Shown in pieces: positions 285 through 12,014 of a stretch of 36,833 bases of DNA. Where the stretch lies: assembly GCA_013426805.1 (NCBI GenBank), contig JACDZG010000074.1, forward strand, positions 1 through 36,833. The letters are read 5' to 3'. The position numbers and the translations under genes were made by a program. The stretch comes from Chromatiaceae bacterium (GTDB lineage Bacteria; Pseudomonadota; Gammaproteobacteria; Chromatiales; Chromatiaceae). The stretch's first letter is position 1. Each line of letters opens with the position of its first letter. The notes under the pieces are model-generated. The model ran no database searches and was not told the DNA's origin. It saw only the letters and a list, made by a program, of their open reading frames with translations.

Positions 285-1072
285 GGAGAGTAAGCCGGGT
301 TCTCACCGCTGCTTAGGCAGACGTTTGTGTTCTCTGTTGCCGCCTGGTTTCCCGGCGGTGCCACGATATCTCTGCCATACAGCGATTCGTTCCCGGCTCC
401 TCGCAGAACCGGACTTGGAGTGTTACACCATCCGGCTCCCAGCTTGAGTCATCCCCGGACGAACAGAGCAACATCGCCCCATCGACTCCGTGCACCAGGC
501 GTCCGGCGTAGCGCGCGAAGCTTTGCTATCCGTGTGAAATGCGCGAGTTTAGTGGTCGCGGGCAAAATCCTCTCGGCGTAGGGCCGCGTATCGATCACGC
601 ATTGTCTCAAGCCGCCACCCCTTGGCTCCACCGGCATTACCCGGCATCGACGCTACTATGGATGGCTCCGACTTCCAAGCACCACTGCCCATGTCCTCGC
701 TCTTACACTTGTTCATGGGTGCCCGCCTCCTGCGGACCGACGCTTGGATCTCCCTGGTTACCGCGTATTCTCAATGTCAGGCTCGACACGGCCTCGGACC
801 CCGGGGAGTACCGGCGCCGCTCGCCATGGCGCCGCACCGGTTGTTGCCTACCGGCGGGTCAAAACCGTCGGCACTCGCCAACCAAGACTTTCGGGGCTCA
901 ACACCTTCAGGGTCGGCATCACCCGTTACCTTTGCACCTCGCCTGCTTTCGTGCCTACGCATCGACGCGCCCGTTACCGCTCGCGCCGCAAGGCTCGATA
1001 CTGGGCTCGCGGCTCACGATTACCCAGGCGGGACTCTCACCCGCTAGAACACGCGGCCTTGCCAGGCCGCAC
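285..1072 (-). ncRNA. ORF-less group II intron (ribozyme)
   Basis: A self-splicing retroelement RNA of 788 nt on the minus strand, lacking the usual reverse transcriptase. The 5' end (1072) reads GTGCGGCCTGGC, a GUGYG-type start, followed by a GCGGGTGAGAGTCCCGC stem typical of bacterial domain I. Domain V lies at 406-438 with the AGC catalytic triad in GAGCCGGATG and the closing strand GTCCGGTTC; at 33 nt it is one base shorter than usual. Domain VI follows: GAGGAGCCGGG pairs with CCCGGCTTACTC, leaving one bulged A as branch point, seventh from the 3' end (285). Six bases at 856-861 (TGACCC read on the minus strand) are complementary to the last six exon bases GGGTCA, a candidate EBS1-IBS1 pair. 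It probably depends on a reverse transcriptase supplied from elsewhere. The exact class is not assigned. Confidence 0.85.
406..438 (-). ncRNA. Group II intron domain V
   Basis: The catalytic hairpin of the intron. The outer stem is GAGCCGGA pairing with TCCGGTTC, with the AGC triad at positions 2-4. The distal stem GGTG/CACT is closed by a three-base loop rather than the usual GNRA tetraloop, which may weaken activity. Confidence 0.8.
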
Positions 1073-1116
1073 TGACCCCATCCCTGCGACGGGAAAGACC
1101 TGACCCCATCCCTGCG
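1073..1116 (-). repeat. Duplicated 31-bp repeat, target of the intron
   Basis: An intact copy occupies 1086-1116. The 5' half of a second overlapping copy lies at 1073-1088, and its other half is at 270-284, beyond the intron. Removing 285-1072 rejoins that copy, which then matches the intact copy at 30 of 31 bases. On the minus strand the core reads GGGATGGGGTCAGGTCTT. From memory, GGGGTCAGGTCTT-type words are common near REP-associated tyrosine transposases in gammaproteobacteria. No transposase is present here, so that link is an inference. Confidence 0.75.
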
Positions 1117-1194: not shown

Positions 1195-3510
1195 TCACGG
1201 CGTGGTGCTCGCTGATTGTTCCTCTTCCGTGCGGGTACCCACATGGCCCGGGGCGCCGACCGACCGATCTGGCGGCGGCCATTGTTCAGGCGGTACGACC
1301 CGTACCTCCGCCTCGTCGCCTCCCGAAGGTCGCGTTGGGATGCCGTAACCCTTGCCGATGCCCAATGCCGGATCGCCGTCGTCGTAGACGTTCTGAAGAA
1401 AGTTAAACAGCCCCCGCTCACCCTTACGCTTGAGCGATTGGGGCGAGCCGGCATCGAGATCCGGGGCCTTGGTGTCGGAATTGAACTCCTTGTAGAGTGG
1501 CTTGACGCGGGTCGGATCGACCAGACGCGCCGCGAGTTCCATCAGCCCGATCTCCAGGTAGCGGCGATGCCAGGGGCTGCGGGCGATCTGCTCCGCAAGC
1601 TCCTGCCAATCCCGTGGCTGCGCACCGATACAATGGGTGAAAGCGAACCAGGCGTCTTTCCGCAGATGGTCCAGAATGTCGGCCAGAAAGAGGGCCAGGG
1701 TATCGGCTGGTCCGCCGTCCGGCGCTCCCAGCGGTGAAGGTTCGCGCCGCGCCGACAGACCGAAAAAGACACCTCGGGCCTCCAGCCACCAACCGGCCAG
1801 TTGGTGGTCCTCCGGCAACCGTTGATTGGCGGCTGTGGTACCCTTGGTTCTCGCTTGATCCTGACGGTAAGCCTTTTTGTAATAAGTCTTATATTCTCTA
1901 AATGGGATGGGGTTCAGGCCGACCTCACACTGGATCAGGGTGGCCAGCGGACCCTGTTCATCGGGGCGGTTGCGGTCCGCGATGACCCGGGCATAAAGTG
2001 CGTTCGAGTCGATCAGGATCCAGATGACCTCGGCACCCAGCGACTGCTTGAGCCGCACCAGAGTCGCAATGAAGCGGTCCAGTTGGCCGGGGCCCGATCG
2101 CTGATTCGCCCCATTCGGGTCGGCCGGCCGCGGGTCCGCCGCCGTTTGTGCCCACACCGTGTCGGCATTCACACCGAGCTTGTCGATCTCGTCGATGACC
2201 AGCACCGGCTCGACCCCCGCGCGGTGCAGCAGGTACAGGTAGCGCCGCAGGAGTGAGATCAGCCAGACGCGGTTCCCGGGCCCGAAACTCGCGTGACGGC
2301 GGGTGCTGCGGCTGCCCGTGAAACCCAGTACCGCCAGTCCGGCCAGCGCAATGACCGCGCCGCCGACCGGGCTGATCGGGGGCTCGGTCGGGGGCGGCGC
2401 AGTCGGCTTGACGAGTATCCTTCCGGCGGTGGACGGGTCGCTGCCTTGGCTGAGCTTCTCGCCGTTGACGCCAGCCACTCCGAATACCCCTGGCGACTGC
2501 GCAACGATCCACTCCCATATCGGCGGTGAAACGATTAACCCCCAGCCGACTGCCAGCGCCGCCAAGACCTGCAGCAAGCGCTGGCCCTTGGCCTCCCAGC
2601 GCCAGGTCCGCTCAATACTGGCCTGCGCCTCCACTGAAAACTGCTGGGCATGAATCAGATCATAGAGGTGAGCACTCATCCGGCGCAGCCGCGCCAGGTC
2701 CAGATAGCGCAGCCAAAGCCAGGCCAACAGGGTGGCCGGGATCGTCAGCCAAGCGGACCGCCAACAAACCGCCCAGACGTAGCCCGGGTCAGTCCATGGC
2801 GCGAACGTCGGGTCACGGAGCCAGAGATGGAGCACGACGCCCGCCAGGAAGGCCAACAGCAGACACAGGGCGATGGTCCAGGCACTTTTCGGCTGACGCT
2901 GCGGCTTAATCAGGGCGGTCCGGGTAAACCAGTAAGTCGGAGTCCCGAGCCGCGCCTTCAGGGTGCGGCCATGGCGGCGGACTCCAGAGCGGGGGTCAAT
3001 GGCGCTGGTGAGTGCGAAGACGAGGTTGCGCAGCAGCGCCAGGGTATCGCCGTCGAGGTCAGCGTGTTCGGCCGAACCAGGCGCGACCGCCGCTCCGCCA
3101 TCGGGAAAGAAGGGGTCCACCGGCACCGGCAGCAGGAGCCGCGTGACCCCGCGCGGACGGCGGTTGATCCGCAGCCGGCAACGGTAGGGGTCGTGGCCCG
3201 AGGCGATGGCCAGAAGTCGGCCGATCCGGGGTTTGAACCACTGCGCCAACACGCCTAATCCGGTCGTGAGCTTCCACAACATTGACGCTTGCCGCGCTTT
3301 CAGTTTCACAACCCTGGCGTACAGCAGGGCCCTCAAGGGCACCAGTTCCCGCCGATCGTTCAGTGCCTCATCTACCAAGCGCGTCTTACCGACCCCGCGC
3401 TGGCCCGTGACCAGCATCATGCCGCCGCCGTTGAGCGCCGGGGTCTCGCAAAATGCGCGGATCTGCTTGATCGCCCGCTCGGTCTCGACAGTCTGAAAAT
3501 AGTCATCCAT
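1195..3510 (-). CDS. Membrane-embedded P-loop NTPase (KAP-like layout)
   Basis: A 771-residue protein of unknown function, third gene of a three-gene operon. Walker A is GQRGVGKT (36-43) and Walker B is VLVIDE (436-441), followed by a sensor-like strand WILIDSN near 497. Four hydrophobic segments lie between the two Walker motifs, at about 211-231, 246-268, 312-335 and 381-399. A membrane region inserted inside the NTPase domain is the hallmark of KAP-family NTPases, though overall similarity to known KAP proteins cannot be judged by eye. The C-terminal 240 residues look globular and are unassigned. The start ATG overlaps the end of the 373-residue gene by 8 bases, so translation is probably coupled. 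It likely acts at the inner membrane as the effector or anchor of the operon's system. Confidence 0.85.
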   Translation of the reverse strand: MDDYFQTVETERAIKQIRAFCETPALNGGGMMLVTGQRGVGKTRLVDEALNDRRELVPLRALLYARVVKLKARQASMLWKLTTGLGVLAQWFKPRIGRLLAIASGHDPYRCRLRINRRPRGVTRLLLPVPVDPFFPDGGAAVAPGSAEHADLDGDTLALLRNLVFALTSAIDPRSGVRRHGRTLKARLGTPTYWFTRTALIKPQRQPKSAWTIALCLLLAFLAGVVLHLWLRDPTFAPWTDPGYVWAVCWRSAWLTIPATLLAWLWLRYLDLARLRRMSAHLYDLIHAQQFSVEAQASIERTWRWEAKGQRLLQVLAALAVGWGLIVSPPIWEWIVAQSPGVFGVAGVNGEKLSQGSDPSTAGRILVKPTAPPPTEPPISPVGGAVIALAGLAVLGFTGSRSTRRHASFGPGNRVWLISLLRRYLYLLHRAGVEPVLVIDEIDKLGVNADTVWAQTAADPRPADPNGANQRSGPGQLDRFIATLVRLKQSLGAEVIWILIDSNALYARVIADRNRPDEQGPLATLIQCEVGLNPIPFREYKTYYKKAYRQDQARTKGTTAANQRLPEDHQLAGWWLEARGVFFGLSARREPSPLGAPDGGPADTLALFLADILDHLRKDAWFAFTHCIGAQPRDWQELAEQIARSPWHRRYLEIGLMELAARLVDPTRVKPLYKEFNSDTKAPDLDAGSPQSLKRKGERGLFNFLQNVYDDGDPALGIGKGYGIPTRPSGGDEAEVRVVPPEQWPPPDRSVGAPGHVGTRTEEEQSASTTP

Positions 3511-4624
3511 GGTCGGTCTGCTCGTCGCGGATCAAGCGGTCGGCCCCGGTCGGGGGCTGTTCTTGTGGCCAATCGTAGCGATCACCGAACCAGCCCTGCC
3601 ACTTATGGTGTTTGATAAATTTTTGCGGGTCTTCGGTGTAAGGGAGATCCATCACCCGCGCCGCCCAGAACAGCAGTGTGAGTGAGGCGGGTTGCAGGGT
3701 CCAGTTGCCATGGGCATCGGCAATTGGCGTGAGCCATCCCTCGAACAGCAGATCCTGTTCCAGCGGTACCAGTCGCTGATCCCGCCAGCCATTCCAAGGC
3801 ACCGGGCCGCGCAGCGGTCGCCGGCCGGTCTTGGCATCCGCACCATAGGGTTGCCAGACGGGGTGGTCGTGGTCCGGGTTCTGGGTGAACCGTGGCAGAT
3901 AGGCGGTGAGCAGGAGCGCGATCTGTCGCCTCTTGATCTCGATGTCGGCCGCGGATGGGCGGCCAGCGGGGTCGTTGATCCCGGCCAGGAGATGGCGTTC
4001 GCATAGCGCCTTGCATTCGATATTGATCCGCTGTCCGAGCCGTTCATAACACTGCCCGGAGAAATCCTGACACTGGTCATGACATTGCCGAGAGGGATCG
4101 GGGCACTGGCGGCGTTGGGTGCGGATAAACCAGCCAGCCCCGAGCCAGGCGTCCCACTGTTCGATCAAGTCCTTCCATTCCCCCGTGTCGCGCCGCAGGG
4201 CACCATCATCGCGCAAGAGAAAGGACGGATCGGCAAAGGCGCTAAACTCCTCCAGATTGTGCAATCGTCGAAATACCGGGCCGTGCAGAAATACCAGACA
4301 GTCACCCGCGATGTTGCGGGGACGCACCAGCGCCTCGCATAACTGGTAAATCTTCGTGCGATCACAATCAGTAAAACGCAGATAGGTGCCCGCCTTCGGT
4401 TCCCACCCGTCCGGCTGGGGTGGGTTTTCCGTCAGATTGCTGACCAAGCCGTGCAGTTGACGGAAATGATTGTCCGGCGTCCATTTGTCAGCGATGTTAG
4501 CGTAGGGGAGCACCAGGATTTTGACTCCCGTGCTTGACTCAAATGCGGCGCGAGCATCTTGATCACTCGATAACGGTCCGTTTCGCAAAGCGTTCAGGTC
4601 GATATAACTGAAGTCATCTGTCAT
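3503..4624 (-). CDS. Hypothetical protein with cysteine cluster, operon middle gene
   Basis: A 373-residue soluble protein that I do not recognise. It has no signal peptide or membrane segment. The N-terminal third has alternating strands and helices (ILVLPYANI near 36-44; CLVFLHGP near 109-116). A striking segment at 174-208 has Cys174, 181, 185 and 192 (spacing C-x6-C-x3-C-x6-C) followed by Cys204 and Cys208 and a His, which could bind metal. The C-terminal half is rich in Trp and Pro. It overlaps the upstream 2206-residue gene by 11 bases and the downstream NTPase gene by 8, so it is almost certainly made together with both. It may be an adaptor between the two ATPases, but that is a guess from position only. 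Confidence 0.8.
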   Translation of the reverse strand: MTDDFSYIDLNALRNGPLSSDQDARAAFESSTGVKILVLPYANIADKWTPDNHFRQLHGLVSNLTENPPQPDGWEPKAGTYLRFTDCDRTKIYQLCEALVRPRNIAGDCLVFLHGPVFRRLHNLEEFSAFADPSFLLRDDGALRRDTGEWKDLIEQWDAWLGAGWFIRTQRRQCPDPSRQCHDQCQDFSGQCYERLGQRINIECKALCERHLLAGINDPAGRPSAADIEIKRRQIALLLTAYLPRFTQNPDHDHPVWQPYGADAKTGRRPLRGPVPWNGWRDQRLVPLEQDLLFEGWLTPIADAHGNWTLQPASLTLLFWAARVMDLPYTEDPQKFIKHHKWQGWFGDRYDWPQEQPPTGADRLIRDEQTDHG

Positions 4625-7600
4625 TGCCGTTCCTTTGATCGGTCATAGGCCGGACATAGGCCGGAAAGAGGTTATTGCAAAACCGAAAACACGCTCCCTC
4701 GCTGCCGATCAGCACGCCGGTATGGGTCAGGCGATCTAATATCTGGACAACACGTTGAGTCCGGACATGGCCCTTGAATCGATCCGCGACCTCCGCGGGA
4801 TCGACGACCAACTCCTCGGGCCAGGACTTGTCCTGGTGCCTGATCGGGAGCAGTTCGCGGCGCTGCGCCTGGAGCGACAGTGCATCCCACAGGTTTTGCA
4901 GCCCGAATGCCCGTAGCGGGTTCGCATAAGGGTCGATGCCGTCTTCTTCATCCGCCTTCTCGGCGACAGACCTGACCGTCTGCCTGAGGTGGTTCAGAAC
5001 CTCGTCGCGGCAGACGCGGAGCGCGCGCTCCCAGTCGCCGACGCTGATCACCCGCCGCCGCCCCTTGGCGGTGCCGCAAAGCGCCAACCCGAGTGCGTGC
5101 GCAATCCAGGGAAACCCCCGACAAAAATGCAGTACCGTGCCGGCGAGAGATTCCGGTAACAGGATACCGAAGCCGTCCAACCGGGTCTGGAGAAATTCCC
5201 AGGTCTCCTGCGGCGACCAGGGGCCAAGCACCAGCGGGTCGCCGAACAGGTTGTACCACGGATTGTCCGGGAGGTTGGTGCGCGCCAGCCGACACAGGCT
5301 CTCACCCTGCTCGCTGCCGTGCGGGTAGGTGGTCGCGATGATACTGATCAGGTTCGCCTGAACCAGTTCCCTGACCAGATGGCCGACCGCATGACCCGGG
5401 GCGTCATGCCGCAGCAGGTGGAGTGTCTCATCCAGGAAGAGCACCGCCTTATGTCCGCGTCGGTGGCTGATTTGGGCGAGCCGTTCCTTGACGCGGCGGA
5501 TCGCCTCATCCCGCTGGCGCGGGTTGCCGACGTCTGACCATTCATAACGGATTCGCTCCCCTTTTCCATTCAGCTCGGCCCACAGCTTATTGAGGAACCA
5601 GCGCAGCACTGCGTCGCCGTGAGCGGCTGGATGTTGCGAACAGATCAGTTCCACCCAGGGCCGCTGATCGCCGCGCTGGACCAGTTCATACTCGATGCGC
5701 TGCATCAAGGTGGTCTTGCCCATCCGGCGGCCACCGACCAACAAGGCGCTCGCATTTTTCCGCGACGGTGAACCACCGCTCGGCCGCGCCTCCTCGTGGA
5801 GATCAAGCAGATAAAAAATCCTCTCCAACTCATCGGTGCGGCCATGGAAGGCACGGTCCATCCGCTCGGCGTCCAACCCGGGTGTGGTTTGAAAAACCCG
5901 GCCCGGCGTGATGCGATGCTGGAGTGCCGCCAACTGATTGAGCCGTTGCAGGACCTGTCGACGGTTGGGAGCACACAAGAGTGCCAGCAGGTCGTCCGGG
6001 TCCAGACGCAGCGCGATACCCGGCAGGTCCGGCAGCGGGTCGCGAGCCACGAGCAGCCAGAGACCTTCCGCTGACTTCGGTTGATCCGCGGCCGGGGTTT
6101 GACCGGGCAGCAGGCAATAGACGCGCGATAGGGTCTGATGCAGCAGGTCGATGCGCTCATCCGCGCCGCGGGTCTGTGCGTAGCAGATATCACCCGCCAA
6201 TCCGGGCTCGGATGCGGCCAGGACCGCCAGCAGGGGCGCCGCGATCGGTTTGAGTGCCGTGCCGGGTAGCCTGGATAGGCCCGGTTGCAGGAGCGCCTCG
6301 ACCTGGACGACAGCGCCCTGGATCGCCGCCAGCACCTCCGGTCGGCACGCCAACCAGTCCAAGACATCCGCGGACGGCACCGGGGGGGGCAGCAGCCTGC
6401 GCCAGAGTTCGAGGCCCAAGTCGCCCGGGCTTGGACGGGCAGTGGCGGAGGGGTCGTCGAGCGGTGCCCCGGTACACCAGGCGGTCAGGAAAGACGCGGG
6501 CAGTCCCTGCATCGCGTCCGTCAGGTCTCGATACCCCTGATCCCCGAGCATACGCCGCAGCAGCGATTGCACCGCTTGGGGGCCAGGTATCCAGTCGCCC
6601 AGCGCGGCGGTGACGCGGGGCGGGGTATCCCGCCGCAGATGGACCCAAACGGCCAGCGCCTGGTGACTGATCTCCGGCCCCTTGTCACTGTGCAGCAAGG
6701 CATGGACCTGAGCGACGAGATCAAGCCCTTGTTCCCCAGGCTTCAAATCCGGCACCCAGATGGGGATCGCGTCTTCCCCGGCGCCCGCCAGACTGGCGAT
6801 CTTCTTGACGCCGCTCCAGGCCGCCGCATAGCGATCCATGATGAGTCGGATGAGGCGTTCATGCTCATCGTCCGGCCACCAGGGGCCGCGCAACCATAGC
6901 AGGGGTCGCCGCGCGTCCAGGTGCGCCATCAAATGCCGCGCCCGCTCCGGCCACCAACAATCGTCGCTGAAGGTCTCCAGGCTACGCAAGGAGTGCAGCG
7001 GGATCTCATGCTGGTAATCCCGTCCCAGTTGATCCTGGCAGTAGAGTGTCACCTGCCGGTCCAGTGTATCGGGTGTCTGAGTGCCGATTCCGAAGCTGAT
7101 CTCGCTCCAATCATCATTGGCGGGCAGGGACAGGTTGCGCTTGACCTCGGTGATGAGGCCATCGGGGCCTTGTAACTCCATGACCAGCAGTGGCCGACTG
7201 GCCCTGTTGCGCAGCCGCAGCCGCACCTCGATATGCTGATCGTCCCGCCAGGTGAAGCGCGTTTCCACGTCCAGGTAGGCACTCAAATCGGGGTCCGCCA
7301 TCCCCTCGTCCAGCGCTTGCAGACGCAGTGCGATCGGCCCGGTCCAGGCGTCGCGGCAACCCTGCCAGAAGAGCCCGGCCAGGGTCAACCCGTTCTTGGC
7401 CGTGAGCACCGATTCGGCGCCGTCCACCTGTCCGCCCAGCGACAGGAGCCGTTCCCGCTCCTGCCAGGCGAAATGACCAGGCCCCTCACCGTGCGCGTCG
7501 CGCACTTGTCGAACCAGGTCGGCCAAGCCCTTGAGCCACTGACCCCAATGGTGGTTGTCGGGAAAAACCGCGGACACCCGGCTGATGTCGGCATCCGTCA

Positions 7601-10600
7601 ATACAGTCTCACGGGAGTAAGCCTGTAGCGCCGTGAGACCGAGTTTGGCCAAGGCGGCGGGCTTCTTGTGAGACCCCAGGAGGTCGAGCCAAGGCTGTCG
7701 GTCGACAAAGCCCTCGAAGGGAAGTCGGCTATAGGCCAGCCAAGCGAAGCGCGGCCCCAGGCACCTGGGGTCATCGGTCCCCCAGAGCAGCGCCAGGGTC
7801 TGGGCCCAGACCGGGGTTGGGCTGATCGGGTCCTGGGCGCACGCGGCCTGCCAGGCGCGTGCGGCCTGACTGAGCCGGAGCAGGCGCAATTGACCGCCGA
7901 TGGCAATCGGCCGGGGACATTCCCGCGGCGGCTCGCCCCACAGACAGTTGCCGATTCGCGCGGTCAGGACTTGGGCGAACGGGTCGCCGGTCAACGCGGC
8001 CGGCTCGCTGACCGCCAGGATGCCATCGACGATCTGGCCCAGCACGTCGCTCTCGGAGCGCTCGGCGAGGCCCTCCCATAGACGTGTCAGCAAGCGGTCC
8101 AGACCGGGGTGGTACCCAGTGTCGGAGAACGAGACTCGATTGCTGAAGTCCGGCCGCCTGGCCAATAGGGCGGGACGATGCGGCGGGTAACGGCGGTCCC
8201 AAGCCGCGACCTCGTCACGTGAAAGTCGGCTGGCGCGCTCCAGGACGTCGATCTGCGCATCGGTCAGGGCGTTACGCCCCAGCGCGTCCGCGATCAGGCG
8301 CAGTCCCCGCTGGGCGATCAGCGGTTCGTCTGAGTTGAAGAGGTCGGCCATGACCTGGAGTTCCGGCGGGGCCAAGCGGTCTTGCGCCCTGAGTGGATAG
8401 ACCGCGATCGAGCCTAACCCCTGCCGGTTATCCACCGGTGGTCGGGGGCTTCCTCCTTCCAAGAAAAGCAAACGGCCGGATTGGGCGGCGATAACAGCCT
8501 TGCCGGTAGCGAGCCGACAGGTCGCGGAGACCGGACCGACACGCTCCAGTGCCGCCATCAAGCGGCCCTGGTCGTCCAAGAGCATAGCGTCCTCCGAATC
8601 CCCGGCCACCAGCCAGAGCCCTCCCGATCCGTCCGCGGCCTGGTCATCGCCGGTACGGATCCGGCGGATGCGCCGGATCGCGGCCCCGCAGCCGGTGCTC
8701 CACAGGAGGCGCCCCTCCTCTCCACACCGGCGCGACAAAGCCACCACCGATCCGTCGTGGCCGCCACACACCGCCTGCGGTGGGTCCGCCAGGGTCGACA
8801 GATACAATGCATGGAGCTCGCTCACCGAGCGGTACCAAATCGTCGGCTTCGTCAGCGTTCCCGGTGAATCACCCCGCAACAAGGGGTCCAGTGACCAGCA
8901 GAGCAGCAAGCCGCCAATCTGGTCGATGGCCCAGACCCGCCGGGGTGCCTTGGCGTCGGGTTCCTCTTGGACCAGGCGCAGGCGCCCGGATCCGTCGCTG
9001 GTGTAGAGTACCTGTGGCGGGCGGAGCCGCTGTTGACTATCGAGCCCCAGCCACACCAGACAGGCCCGCTCCCGCGGGTCGTTGCCGCCGAGCAGAAAGC
9101 CGCGGCGCGGGCCAACTGAACTGTTCAGCCGCAGATAGCGCGCCGAGTAGCAGTCGATGGGCACACGCACCGATGCGGGGCCCTGCAGGCAGAACCTGCC
9201 GTCCTGCACCGCGAACAACAGGGCCTCGCCCTGATTGGTCGCGATCAGGACCAGGTCCGGCGATTGCTTTCCGTCCTCGCTGTCGACCCGGGTCGCGACT
9301 GCCCCGATCTGACCCCGCCACAGCCCTTGCCCCACGCCGTCGAGCTCGGCGTACTGCTCCCAGTGCGGCACGGGGTTTTCGGTGCGGATGAAGGCCGAGA
9401 GGCCGCGGGATGGCACAAAACAGACAAAGGACTGCTTGGCACGGTTCAGGCAGCGCAGGTGATGCACCTGACCGCCCAGGCGCAATGAATTCACCTCGGT
9501 CAGTGACCGTAAGGGGTAGGAGCGCGCGGCCAAGACCCGGCGTTGCCGGTCGACCTGGTAATGCAGCAGGTCGAGTAACCTGCGATACTCCACCTGGTAA
9601 GGATCCTTATGCAGTCCAAGACACTGGCCCCAGGGTTGCAGCCAGTCGTACTCGCGAAAGACCTTGAGCCAGAGCCGATCCGGTGCTGCCTCCGGAAGGT
9701 CGCAGAGTGCCGCGGTGGTCCGCAGCACCCGCAACGGGTCGTCAAGTGGCTGCTCGCCCCGATGACCATCAACCTGGTTGCGCATCCAGCCCCAAATCCG
9801 CCGCAGCAGGGCCTCGTGGCAGCCGGCAATCTGCAAGGCGCGCTCAGACGATATATCCGCGCTGATCGCCCGACCCAGATCCCGCGCCACCTCATCCAGG
9901 TAGCCCAGAGTCAGCGTAACCCCGTCATCCTCCTGAGTCTGTACTGTTTCATGCCTCTGAATGGCGCGCAGCCAGACCTCGACCAGCAGCCGAAAGCGCC
10001 TCGGGTCAGGGGCACGCCCTGCCGCCAAGCCGTTCTCCTCGACGAGGAACCGATACAGCCGCTTCGCCTTATGCAGGCAGCAGGTGATGGTCTCGGTCGC
10101 CCGGTCGCGCAGTATTTTCACCTCGCAAACATCGTTGAGCCGCAGTGGGTGGAGGCGGTAATACTGGTCCAGGGCGATGATGTTCCCCTGCGTGTCTCCG
10201 ACCAGCCGCTGGATATGCAGGCGGGGCATTGGCTGCCAGTGCCGAATCTTGGGGCGCGACTCGTCCGCGTCATCCTCCAGCCAGTAGACCCGTCCGTCAT
10301 AGCAGGCCGCTAAGACGACGCGTTTGCTGCCGGTCTGCCGCTTCTCGATGACCAGAATATCCTCGACCTTGCCCCCCAGGCGGGCGGAACGCCGGACCTC
10401 GCCGGTCTCGAGGTTAACCCGGAAAACCCGCGCCAGGTTGCTGGCCAGATAGCGCAGCGGGGCGTCCGCCGGGCCGTCTACACCGTCGATTCGGCCGATC
10501 TTCGGATCATCGAGCACCACCAACTGCCCGCTGCTGTCCAGCAGTTGATCGTCCGGCCAGTGTTCCGGATCATCGGTGCGCCGTTGGATAAAGAGTGCCA

Positions 10601-11234
10601 CCGGCATGTCCGCGCCACTGACGCGCTCCGCCCGCGGCAGGCCGGCGGACTCGGACTGCGGGGACCAAGTGACCTGGATCTGGGGCCCGGATGGCCCGGG
10701 CTGGCGATTCGCCATCACCGTGAGGCTGCCGTTACGGTACACGAGCATGAAGACGGCCATGTTCTCGTGTAACGCCAGCGGAGTGATCCGCGACGGTAAT
10801 TCCGCCATGCGGCAGCCAGGGAAATCGACCGGCGTCTCCCGCTGCACCGGAACCACGGGGGACGGCACGTCGCCGAAGTCGCGGAGGGGCTGTGTCTCCC
10901 CTGCCAAATCCGGCCGCCACTCAAAGAGTCGCAGCCCGGCCTTCTGGCCCGGGGTCCGCGGAAAGAGGCAGATCAGGTAGCGCAGCGGGGTTCCCGCGAT
11001 CGGCGGCAGCAGGTAGGTGCCGGACGGTGCCCGTTCCAGGGTCAGGGGTTCACCGACCGAGAGCAGCATCGGGAAGGCGTGGTCGACGAGGTCCAGGTAG
11101 TCCTGATAGTCGGCGATGGCCTGGTTCAGGCGCTCTTGGTCCGTCGGGGCTTCGTCTAGCGCCTTCCAGGCGGCCTTGAGTCTGTCTCTGACGGCGCCGT
11201 AGCGGGTCGCACTGCAAAAGGTCTTTTCCGGCAT
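4614..11234 (-). CDS. Giant propeller-ATPase protein (STAND-like), 2206 aa
   Basis: First gene of the operon, with a good ribosome site (AAGGGAG, 8 bases before the ATG). Two blocks (about 1-400 and 570-930) show short recurring strands such as DGRVYWLEDD, GNIIALD, SGRLLFLEGG and GGLLLCW, typical of WD/PQQ-like beta-propellers, separated by a helical region at about 400-570. A helical segment follows (about 950-1250), then a beta-sandwich-like stretch (about 1320-1410) and a region with a degenerate P-loop-like LWLRGPWWPDDE near 1445. The C-terminus is a P-loop ATPase: an FHGRTDELERI lead-in, Walker A GGRRMGKTTLM (1834-1844), Walker B KAVLFLDE (1929-1936), and a winged-helix-like end (about 2145-2198). 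This order (sensor repeats plus ATPase plus winged helix) resembles STAND NTPases, but with the ATPase last. Its likely role is a ligand-sensing switch; the ligand is unknown. Confidence 0.88.
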   Translation of the reverse strand: MPEKTFCSATRYGAVRDRLKAAWKALDEAPTDQERLNQAIADYQDYLDLVDHAFPMLLSVGEPLTLERAPSGTYLLPPIAGTPLRYLICLFPRTPGQKAGLRLFEWRPDLAGETQPLRDFGDVPSPVVPVQRETPVDFPGCRMAELPSRITPLALHENMAVFMLVYRNGSLTVMANRQPGPSGPQIQVTWSPQSESAGLPRAERVSGADMPVALFIQRRTDDPEHWPDDQLLDSSGQLVVLDDPKIGRIDGVDGPADAPLRYLASNLARVFRVNLETGEVRRSARLGGKVEDILVIEKRQTGSKRVVLAACYDGRVYWLEDDADESRPKIRHWQPMPRLHIQRLVGDTQGNIIALDQYYRLHPLRLNDVCEVKILRDRATETITCCLHKAKRLYRFLVEENGLAAGRAPDPRRFRLLVEVWLRAIQRHETVQTQEDDGVTLTLGYLDEVARDLGRAISADISSERALQIAGCHEALLRRIWGWMRNQVDGHRGEQPLDDPLRVLRTTAALCDLPEAAPDRLWLKVFREYDWLQPWGQCLGLHKDPYQVEYRRLLDLLHYQVDRQRRVLAARSYPLRSLTEVNSLRLGGQVHHLRCLNRAKQSFVCFVPSRGLSAFIRTENPVPHWEQYAELDGVGQGLWRGQIGAVATRVDSEDGKQSPDLVLIATNQGEALLFAVQDGRFCLQGPASVRVPIDCYSARYLRLNSSVGPRRGFLLGGNDPRERACLVWLGLDSQQRLRPPQVLYTSDGSGRLRLVQEEPDAKAPRRVWAIDQIGGLLLCWSLDPLLRGDSPGTLTKPTIWYRSVSELHALYLSTLADPPQAVCGGHDGSVVALSRRCGEEGRLLWSTGCGAAIRRIRRIRTGDDQAADGSGGLWLVAGDSEDAMLLDDQGRLMAALERVGPVSATCRLATGKAVIAAQSGRLLFLEGGSPRPPVDNRQGLGSIAVYPLRAQDRLAPPELQVMADLFNSDEPLIAQRGLRLIADALGRNALTDAQIDVLERASRLSRDEVAAWDRRYPPHRPALLARRPDFSNRVSFSDTGYHPGLDRLLTRLWEGLAERSESDVLGQIVDGILAVSEPAALTGDPFAQVLTARIGNCLWGEPPRECPRPIAIGGQLRLLRLSQAARAWQAACAQDPISPTPVWAQTLALLWGTDDPRCLGPRFAWLAYSRLPFEGFVDRQPWLDLLGSHKKPAALAKLGLTALQAYSRETVLTDADISRVSAVFPDNHHWGQWLKGLADLVRQVRDAHGEGPGHFAWQERERLLSLGGQVDGAESVLTAKNGLTLAGLFWQGCRDAWTGPIALRLQALDEGMADPDLSAYLDVETRFTWRDDQHIEVRLRLRNRASRPLLVMELQGPDGLITEVKRNLSLPANDDWSEISFGIGTQTPDTLDRQVTLYCQDQLGRDYQHEIPLHSLRSLETFSDDCWWPERARHLMAHLDARRPLLWLRGPWWPDDEHERLIRLIMDRYAAAWSGVKKIASLAGAGEDAIPIWVPDLKPGEQGLDLVAQVHALLHSDKGPEISHQALAVWVHLRRDTPPRVTAALGDWIPGPQAVQSLLRRMLGDQGYRDLTDAMQGLPASFLTAWCTGAPLDDPSATARPSPGDLGLELWRRLLPPPVPSADVLDWLACRPEVLAAIQGAVVQVEALLQPGLSRLPGTALKPIAAPLLAVLAASEPGLAGDICYAQTRGADERIDLLHQTLSRVYCLLPGQTPAADQPKSAEGLWLLVARDPLPDLPGIALRLDPDDLLALLCAPNRRQVLQRLNQLAALQHRITPGRVFQTTPGLDAERMDRAFHGRTDELERIFYLLDLHEEARPSGGSPSRKNASALLVGGRRMGKTTLMQRIEYELVQRGDQRPWVELICSQHPAAHGDAVLRWFLNKLWAELNGKGERIRYEWSDVGNPRQRDEAIRRVKERLAQISHRRGHKAVLFLDETLHLLRHDAPGHAVGHLVRELVQANLISIIATTYPHGSEQGESLCRLARTNLPDNPWYNLFGDPLVLGPWSPQETWEFLQTRLDGFGILLPESLAGTVLHFCRGFPWIAHALGLALCGTAKGRRRVISVGDWERALRVCRDEVLNHLRQTVRSVAEKADEEDGIDPYANPLRAFGLQNLWDALSLQAQRRELLPIRHQDKSWPEELVVDPAEVADRFKGHVRTQRVVQILDRLTHTGVLIGSEGACFRFCNNLFPAYVRPMTDQRNGNDR

Positions 11235-11776
11235 CTCGCGACTCCCTTAGATTCTCGTATACATTCCGAGGCCAGCGGGTGACGATCCGAAAACTCTGGT
11301 TGGTAATCGCTGCGCGCCCCCTTCGTCGACTTGCCCGGCAAGGGAACGCCGACCGCTTGATGGCACTTACATTTTTTCAACGGCAATTGGGCCAGATCAG
11401 CCAAAAAGTGTCTACTGAATGATGAGGCACTCATCCGGCGAAATACGCCGTTCGTCGCCGCGGCCTCGATCCTCGTTCCGGCGGTAGAAGCTGCTTGCAG
11501 CCGCTTCAAGGCGTCGGCCTTGATCGTTAAATCGTCCACTCAACCCTGCCCCGGCTCACGAGCAAGAAATTTCTTGGCGCCTTACGGCCACATCTCCCAT
11601 GCTAACGGCACGGTCTTAGTGACGGTTCAAAAACAGGCTATACGCATCAATTAACGACATGCCAGAAAAGCAGCCGGTTGCGAAAAAATGCCTGTTCACC
11701 TTGTTATTGAACCGTTACTTAGCCGGATGTGCGGTTCTACCGGGTCGCGCGTCAGGGTCTGCTTGGCCGTTCCCTT
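11235..11776. other. Intergenic region upstream of the three-gene operon
   Basis: About 540 bases without a supported gene. It is the likely promoter region of the minus-strand operon and is less GC-rich than its surroundings around 11560-11720. It contains a perfect 14-bp palindrome, CAAGAAATTTCTTG, at 11563-11576, which could be an operator, and a MITE-like inverted repeat at 11615-11722. I could not pick a convincing -35/-10 pair. Confidence 0.5.
11615..11722. repeat. MITE-like element with 23-24 bp terminal inverted repeats
   Basis: The left arm (11615-11637) and the reverse complement of the right arm (11699-11722) agree at about 20 of 23 positions, sharing the core ACGGTTCAA. A nested inverted repeat (AACAGGC ... 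GCCTGTT) lies inside. The 108-bp unit has no coding capacity. This is the form of a miniature transposable element or a large hairpin. The mobilising transposase is not in the window. Confidence 0.45.
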
Positions 11777-11926: not shown

Positions 11927-12014
11927 GGTCCGCGCAGCGGACCTTTGTACGGATCTGCACCGACCCGACGGGGCCGTAACGGAACCCCGTGCCGGAAGGC
12001 CCCAAGACCATCCA

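Follow-up and report, generated by a model that had tools for sequence, protein, structure and literature searches.

A conserved P3-P2-P1 operon in a Chromatiaceae bacterium and other Gammaproteobacteria, a probable three-component NLR-like conflict system

The 36,833-nucleotide stretch of DNA analysed here (the window) is one whole contig, C28, of a Chromatiaceae bacterium whose genome comprises 7.6 Mb in 349 contigs. We focused on an operon of three open reading frames (ORFs) on the minus strand, each with an ATG start, which we refer to as P3, P2 and P1:

4614..11234, minus strand: P3, 2206 amino acids, the first gene of the operon and the putative sensor/switch protein (ORF with homologues along most of its length)
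3503..4624, minus strand: P2, 373 amino acids, fold not recognised, probable adaptor
1195..3510, minus strand: P1, 771 amino acids, membrane NTPase, probable effector

The ORFs confirm the overlaps reported in a first-pass annotation of this DNA, 11 bases between P3 and P2 and 8 bases between P2 and P1. Because homologues exist for all three frames, we conclude that P1, P2 and P3 are real genes. NCBIfam contained nothing above cut-off for any of them.

The first wide searches used single sequences and recovered P2 in one of 55 genomes, P3 in one of 55 and one of 398 genomes (the window itself), and P1 in two of 274 genomes, the second being a 46-residue match with an internal stop. A joined query of P2 and P1, run on the order to which the window belongs, matched 20 of 210 genomes at E<=0.1. 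Matches were strong (best E 7e-23 or better) in five of these, the window included, and the other 15 were dropped as weak (0.0015 or worse). A P3 profile in the same order detected five of 210 genomes, namely the window and the same four, which is a patchy distribution. We also scanned an alignment of P1 over the genome collection as two short patterns, a procedure of limited reach for that reason. The scan matched 98 stretches and reported seven as relatives, five of which are real: Candidatus Thiosymbion oneisti, a Methylococcaceae metagenome-assembled genome (MAG), the endosymbiont of Escarpia spicata, Gammaproteobacteria RIFOXYD12_FULL_61_37 and a Sedimenticola MAG. Four of these five are the genomes found with the joined query (identical sequence), and the remaining two stretches, L071 and L072, were rejected as short matches. 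A P1 profile run on the order to which the Methylococcaceae MAG belongs matched six of 281 genomes at E<=0.001: the MAG itself (G864), a genome with a full new locus (G930), one with a partial P1 (G897), one with a fragment (G1131), and two, G960 and G1113, that were dropped as short matches. Across the phylum P1 matched 15 of 398 genomes at E<=0.01, and the 14 matches outside the window were rejected because each covered at most 59 profile positions. The operon was found in none of the seven other searched genomes of the window's genus. The seven relatives outside the window all come from other Gammaproteobacteria.

The order P3-P2-P1 is kept in all eight loci that carry the three genes on a single contig (the window, L062, L063, L064, L065, L067, L099 and L100). 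The G1131 locus (L101) was left out of this count, since a 115-residue piece of the P1 C-terminal part, at a contig end, is all that it contains. The first-pass annotation had named a lack of co-occurrence in other genomes as the observation that would speak against its proposal; the three genes occur together, and in the same order, in eight of eight loci, so that objection falls away. Neighbouring genes overlap or almost touch in seven of the eight. The overlaps are 11 and 19 bases in L099, 1 and 4 bases in L063 and L064, and 4 and 4 bases in L065; L062 has a 4-base overlap and then a gap of 12 or 51 bases depending on the start chosen, L067 has a 1-base overlap and then a 2-base gap, and the gaps in L100 measure 26 and 99 bases. 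In L064 and L067 the contig ends within P3, and the corresponding N-terminal halves were found on other contigs of those genomes. Compared with the window, P3 is 24-29% identical, P2 21-26% (five relatives) and the NTPase-type P1 28-38%. With these results, we conclude that the operon is a conserved unit.

One relative carries a different third gene. L100 is a single 9,747-base contig of G897, and its third gene lacks the half of P1 that comprises the NTPase and the membrane segments. Residues 31-153 of the product are a TIR_2 domain (Pfam 3.2e-23), followed at residues 203-408 by a match to the C-terminal part of P1 (profile E 2.3e-18, and 1.6e-15 in another profile search). The C-terminal half of its P3 is 44% identical to the counterpart in G930, and the same value was obtained for P2. 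Trees place the TIR locus as sister to the NTPase-type locus of G930, with support of 0.996 for the P3 C-terminal half, 0.975 for P2 and 0.87 for the P1 C-terminal part, and the swap therefore lies inside the family. The TIR domain is similar to PADLOC models for the TIRs of defence proteins (bSEFIR best, 9.2e-15), and it contains a WEDVE stretch; a W..E arrangement of this kind presumably carries the catalytic glutamate of TIR NADases. The simplest reading of these sequences is that the N-terminal effector was replaced and the sensor, adaptor and docking domain were retained. An effector exchanged while the sensor stays the same is the strongest evidence that P3-P2-P1 is a conflict system, probably an anti-phage one. 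Elsewhere in the same genome, a short degenerate stretch (L102 at about 10290-10410, on contig C261) resembles the Walker B region of P1 and may be what remains of an NTPase-type P1 that was lost.

The first-pass annotation described P1 as a membrane NTPase, and the analysis bears this out. P1 matches AAA_16 at 1.6e-8, above the Pfam cut-off, and hydrophobic segments lie between its Walker A and Walker B motifs. Its features are as follows:

3382..3405, minus strand: P1 Walker A, residues 36-43, GQRGVGKT (motif and alignment)
2320..2874, minus strand: membrane segments inserted in the P1 NTPase, residues 213-397 (hydropathy)
2188..2205, minus strand: P1 Walker B, residues 436-441, VLVIDE (motif and alignment)
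1411..1923, minus strand: P1 C-terminal domain, about residues 530-700, the part kept where TIR replaces the NTPase half in L100

In the window the clear hydrophobic segments are residues 213-231, 313-331 and 379-397, with a weaker fourth between the first two as judged by eye. By hydropathy, at least three separate hydrophobic segments lie between Walker A and Walker B in all seven NTPase-type P1 sequences, and P1 of L063 and L099 has a further one past Walker B. The P-loop lysine and the acidic pair of Walker B are likewise kept in seven of seven. Searches of PDB sequences with the operon proteins gave no useful match; the best, at E 0.039, was ORC4 with the P1 profile. P1 also matches PHROG 296 (DNA transposition protein), the single PHROGs match obtained for the operon, at 5.3e-5, over residues 7-58 only, which we read as the common P-loop and set aside as a sign of relationship. 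P1 is probably the effector.

P3 was described at first as a repeat-rich, giant sensor-like protein ending in an ATPase, and this description is supported: the repeats are modelled as two beta-propellers, and the C-terminal part carries a STAND-like ATPase. The features of P3 are as follows:

10137..11066, minus strand: first predicted beta-propeller, residues 57-366 (AlphaFold model and PDB fold matches)
9519..10130, minus strand: predicted all-helical segment between the propellers, residues 369-572 (AlphaFold model)
8454..9503, minus strand: second predicted beta-propeller, residues 578-927 (AlphaFold model and PDB fold matches)
5055..5867, minus strand: STAND-like ATPase, residues 1790-2060 (Walker A, Walker B DET, GxP-like motif)
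4617..4997, minus strand: C-terminal region past the ATPase, residues 2080-2206 (aligns among relatives)

An AlphaFold model of residues 1-1000, built with eight sequences, reached a mean confidence (pLDDT) of 78.6 and a predicted template-modelling score (pTM) of 0.81, and it predicts the two propellers with the all-helical segment between them. The best PDB fold matches of this N-terminal part are propeller proteins, including chains of the small-subunit processome, Elp2 and the designed repeat propeller 2ymu; several of them are presumably double WD40 proteins. A chain of the 40S ribosome, 9npy_g, which we take to be RACK1, matches one propeller with a template-modelling (TM) score of 0.74 of the target. 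Normalised to the whole query, TM scores were at most 0.26 among the PDB matches listed, so the predicted arrangement of the two propellers is unlike that of any structure among those matches. Many viral WD40 proteins were found among the BFVD matches. By sequence the propellers are almost invisible, with a single Pfam hint at 0.014.

The ATPase of P3 matches AAA_22 at 4.7e-5, below the Pfam cut-off, and at E<0.5 AAA_22 is found in five of six members and AAA_16 in three of six. In the window Walker A lies at residues 1834-1841 and Walker B at 1931-1936. GKT of Walker A with its P-loop lysine, the acidic pair DE of Walker B within DET, and a T[TSA]YP motif are each kept in eight of eight sequences. 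GxP is present in six of the eight and reads G-x-V in L099 and G-x-I in L100. In STAND NTPases a GxP motif and then a winged helix follow the ATPase core, and a winged helix is expected in residues 2080-2206.

P2 matched nothing in Pfam. Its conserved motifs are WxGxGW, GW[LV], QPxS[LM]xLL[FY]WAA and WFG. In the window P2 has nine cysteines, six of them clustered at residues 174-208, where the first-pass annotation had suspected a metal site. None of the six is kept in the five aligned relatives, which led us to reject P2 as a conserved metal protein; Cys 96, outside the cluster, is common to two relatives. The AlphaFold model of P2 was poor (pLDDT 48), too poor for interpretation or a fold search. 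P2 is probably the adaptor.

We then considered where the operon lies. In six of the seven other genomes of the genus there is DNA similarity to the window over pdxJ and glgC; G003 is without a close copy of glgC. Similarity to the closest genomes, G002 and G006, ends at window positions 11955 and 12009, just beyond glgC, and similarity to the other four ends at the end of glgC. Past this point G005 carries a BREX system (BrxL, PglZ, PglX and BrxC, at L033 3081-17768) together with a PDC-S01 gene; G001 carries PDC-S01 (AAA_14/DUF4143), PDC-M03A/B and a T5orf172 protein. In G007 an AAA_14/DUF4143 gene is followed by core genes, in G004 core genes accompany a saccharopine-dehydrogenase-like gene (the core genes being named by eye), and G006 has a GGDEF-EAL regulator. 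The contig of G002 stops about 1.2 kb past glgC. Because the content beyond glgC differs, we conclude that the site is variable: one genome has defence genes there, and others have PADLOC candidates. In G002 (L035 895-1076) and G006 (L030 2464-2519) part of the glgC 3' end occurs a second time beyond glgC, as if insertion or recombination had taken place at the site.

Two further elements belong to the setting of the operon in the window and lie outside the system:

789..1037, minus strand: group II intron match (Rfam RF02005, 135.9 bits)
11615..11722, no strand assigned: MITE-like palindromic element, upstream of the operon

Both elements had been noticed before. The intron match is indeed present downstream, on the same strand as the operon, at a distance of 157 bases beyond the P1 stop by Rfam and not the 122 bases first given. 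The upstream element is present as well; it has 108 bases, with 21-nucleotide arms that are 86% complementary and CTTAG at each outer end, and looks like a miniature inverted-repeat transposable element (MITE) with its target duplication. We regard both as circumstantial only. Window positions 930-1085, which overlap the intron match, are 89% identical to L038 102-259 in G001, and by this similarity the intron family is perhaps common to the genus.

Outside the genus, L099 has IS66 genes and UbiD as neighbours, L063 has a PIN gene, and in L065 a type II/IV secretion or pilus ATPase adjoins P1. Uma2 genes lie near L062 and L103 and a dehydrogenase near L064. In Ca. Thiosymbion oneisti (L062 1-2952), BatD-like and TPR genes follow the operon downstream and share its strand.

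Among known systems, Avs and other bacterial NLR-like sensors are similar in that a large repeat-bearing sensor with a STAND-type ATPase drives an effector and the effectors are exchangeable. In Avs the effector is within the sensor protein, whereas P1 is a separate gene with the P2 gene in between. P3 has its propellers at the N-terminus and its ATPase at the C-terminus, and no PADLOC Avs model matches P1, P2 or P3. The MoxR-vWA ternary conflict systems (VMAP, iSTAND, FtsH and beta-propeller types; Kaur et al. 2020, PMC7159879) share with P3-P2-P1 three core genes, an ATPase switch and variable effectors, and one subtype has beta-propellers; VMAP systems are reported in Beggiatoa, Thiohalocapsa and Lamprocystis (PMC7159879). 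However, P1 and P2 match no system component described in the part of that account considered here (PMC7159879). We rejected membership, since the Pfam matches of P1, P2 and P3 include no MoxR or vWA family beyond an AAA_5 hint of 0.13 in one P1. Conflict systems related to DndH, as far as the available text describes them, couple an Orc/CDC6-type NTPase to KAP NTPase, STAND or TIR domains (PMC10853773). The resemblance here is that ORC subunits are the best, weak PDB matches of the P1 profile (E 0.039); on the other hand, the DndH-related systems are of a HerA/FtsK-linked restriction type in the same portion of text (PMC10853773), and no such partner is present in the P3-P2-P1 loci read. KAP NTPases resemble P1 in having membrane segments inside the P-loop NTPase domain. 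We rejected KAP membership of P1, as no KAP Pfam match was obtained in six P1 members at E<0.5 or in P1 of L099 at 0.01. The TIR domain of L100 matches the PADLOC models of TIR effectors linked to Thoeris, SAVED and Argonaute, and differs from them in being fused to the P1 C-terminal domain behind P3 and P2, with no Thoeris, CBASS or Argonaute partner on its short contig. Literature searches on ternary systems, STAND, TIR, beta-propellers, CATRA and KAP returned no published description of the P3-P2-P1 set in the portions of text they retrieved. We rate P3-P2-P1 as probably belonging among the STAND-based conflict systems with modular effectors.

We propose that P3-P2-P1 is a three-component, NLR-like conflict system with P3 as sensor and switch, P2 as adaptor and P1 as effector, a reading that we consider probable. 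Under this model the predicted N-terminal propellers of P3 would detect a sign of infection, and the STAND-like ATPase at the C-terminus would change state and probably oligomerise. P2 would link P3 to P1. Once triggered, P3 would gather or unlock P1, a P-loop NTPase interrupted by membrane helices and presumably attached via its conserved C-terminal domain, and P1 could then damage or open the inner membrane so that the infected cell is stopped. In L100 the same sensor and adaptor would drive a TIR domain, which is expected to destroy NAD+. We suggest more tentatively, at a little under even confidence, that these loci represent an unnamed family of split NLR-like immune systems with a giant double-propeller STAND sensor, a dedicated adaptor whose fold is new, and an effector that is separate and docks via a constant C-terminal domain. 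Such a family would have at least two effector forms, one a TIR enzyme and the other an NTPase inserted in the membrane, where it might disrupt the membrane or act as an ATP-gated pore.

The first-pass annotation had suggested a sensing or defence system formed by a STAND-like sensor and a membrane NTPase, and the constant gene order, the propeller model, the TIR domain in one relative and BREX at the site all lend this support. Several observations weigh against a conflict system of this kind. Its function is proposed here from sequence and models, and P2 resembles no known fold. No PADLOC model names P1, P2 or P3, which agrees with the earlier remark that no named system with this set was recognised, and the sole PADLOC match at E<1 is mad8 (0.0036) to the P3 ATPase; P3 of L099 and L100 has no PADLOC match at E<0.01. 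These two P3 proteins also match zero Pfam families at E 0.01 and lack the P of GxP, so that the STAND label rests on motifs. The TIR version is found in one of the eight loci, and its fusion in L100 is possibly an assembly error. The three loci outside the genus with long flanks (L063, L065 and L099) lie among mostly housekeeping neighbours as judged by eye, with no clear defence island, which is neutral or slightly unfavourable to a defence-island reading.

The main rival is a non-defence complex that regulates or assembles the cell envelope, with P3 as an ATP-driven scaffold or chaperone, P1 positioning or remodelling something, and TIR serving as a protein-interaction module. Several carriers are by name symbionts or oxidisers of sulfur or methane and could share an envelope trait, and the housekeeping flanks, the secretion or pilus ATPase beside P1 in L065 and the lack of a defence-library match for P2 and P3 would all fit such a complex. 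We nevertheless consider it unlikely, because the operon is patchy in the order and missing from the other searched genomes of the genus, because one partner is replaced by TIR, a common exchangeable immune effector, and because the site is shared with BREX. Less likely again is a different type of conflict system, such as one directed at other bacteria or at plasmids, working by the same sensor-adaptor-effector logic. Its anatomy would be identical and the present analyses cannot discern the trigger, but no obvious toxin-delivery partner was seen among the neighbours viewed except the ATPase in L065 (secretion signals were not searched). It is very improbable that the window copy is decaying and that the common order is inherited baggage without function: although the operon adjoins the intron match, the MITE-like element and the contig end, all three ORFs are open end to end and all ATPase motifs are present, as in distant relatives.

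If P3-P2-P1 is the conflict system that we propose, it is a further immune system, as yet unnamed, built of sensor, adaptor and exchangeable effector. The loci found here all come from Gammaproteobacteria, several of which are, going by their names, symbionts, sulfur oxidisers or relatives of methanotrophs. The system would also be a clear example of an NLR-like switch in bacteria with its sensor and effector on separate proteins. Since NTPase and TIR are naturally exchanged on a shared backbone, what the membrane NTPase does can be tested directly: should the TIR form prove to work through loss of NAD+ behind these same P3 and P2 proteins, it would be very likely that the NTPase form is an effector as well.

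Mobile elements and further ATPases were also searched. Viral contigs contained no relatives detectable with P1, the C-terminal part of P3, the P1 profile or the P3 profile, and genome contigs searched with the P3 ATPase gave no result. Against plasmids, tblastn with P1, P2 and P3 gave nothing beyond one chance match (E 3), and tblastn with the P3 of the relatives gave no result in plasmids or phages. Weak ATPase matches among relatives, at E 0.0019 or worse, were rejected, including ATPases of 550 amino acids at 0.024 or worse. Giant ATPases on Euzebya and Streptomyces plasmids were also rejected (E 0.007 or worse), and phmmer with P1, P2 and P3 gave no match to them. These ATPases of about 2000 amino acids, at L044 6179-14724 on a Euzebya pacifica plasmid and L045 3483-11779 on a Streptomyces xanthophaeus plasmid, are weakly similar in the ATPase, and each adjoins a large uncharacterised gene or open frame. 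They are possibly other unnamed giant STAND systems.
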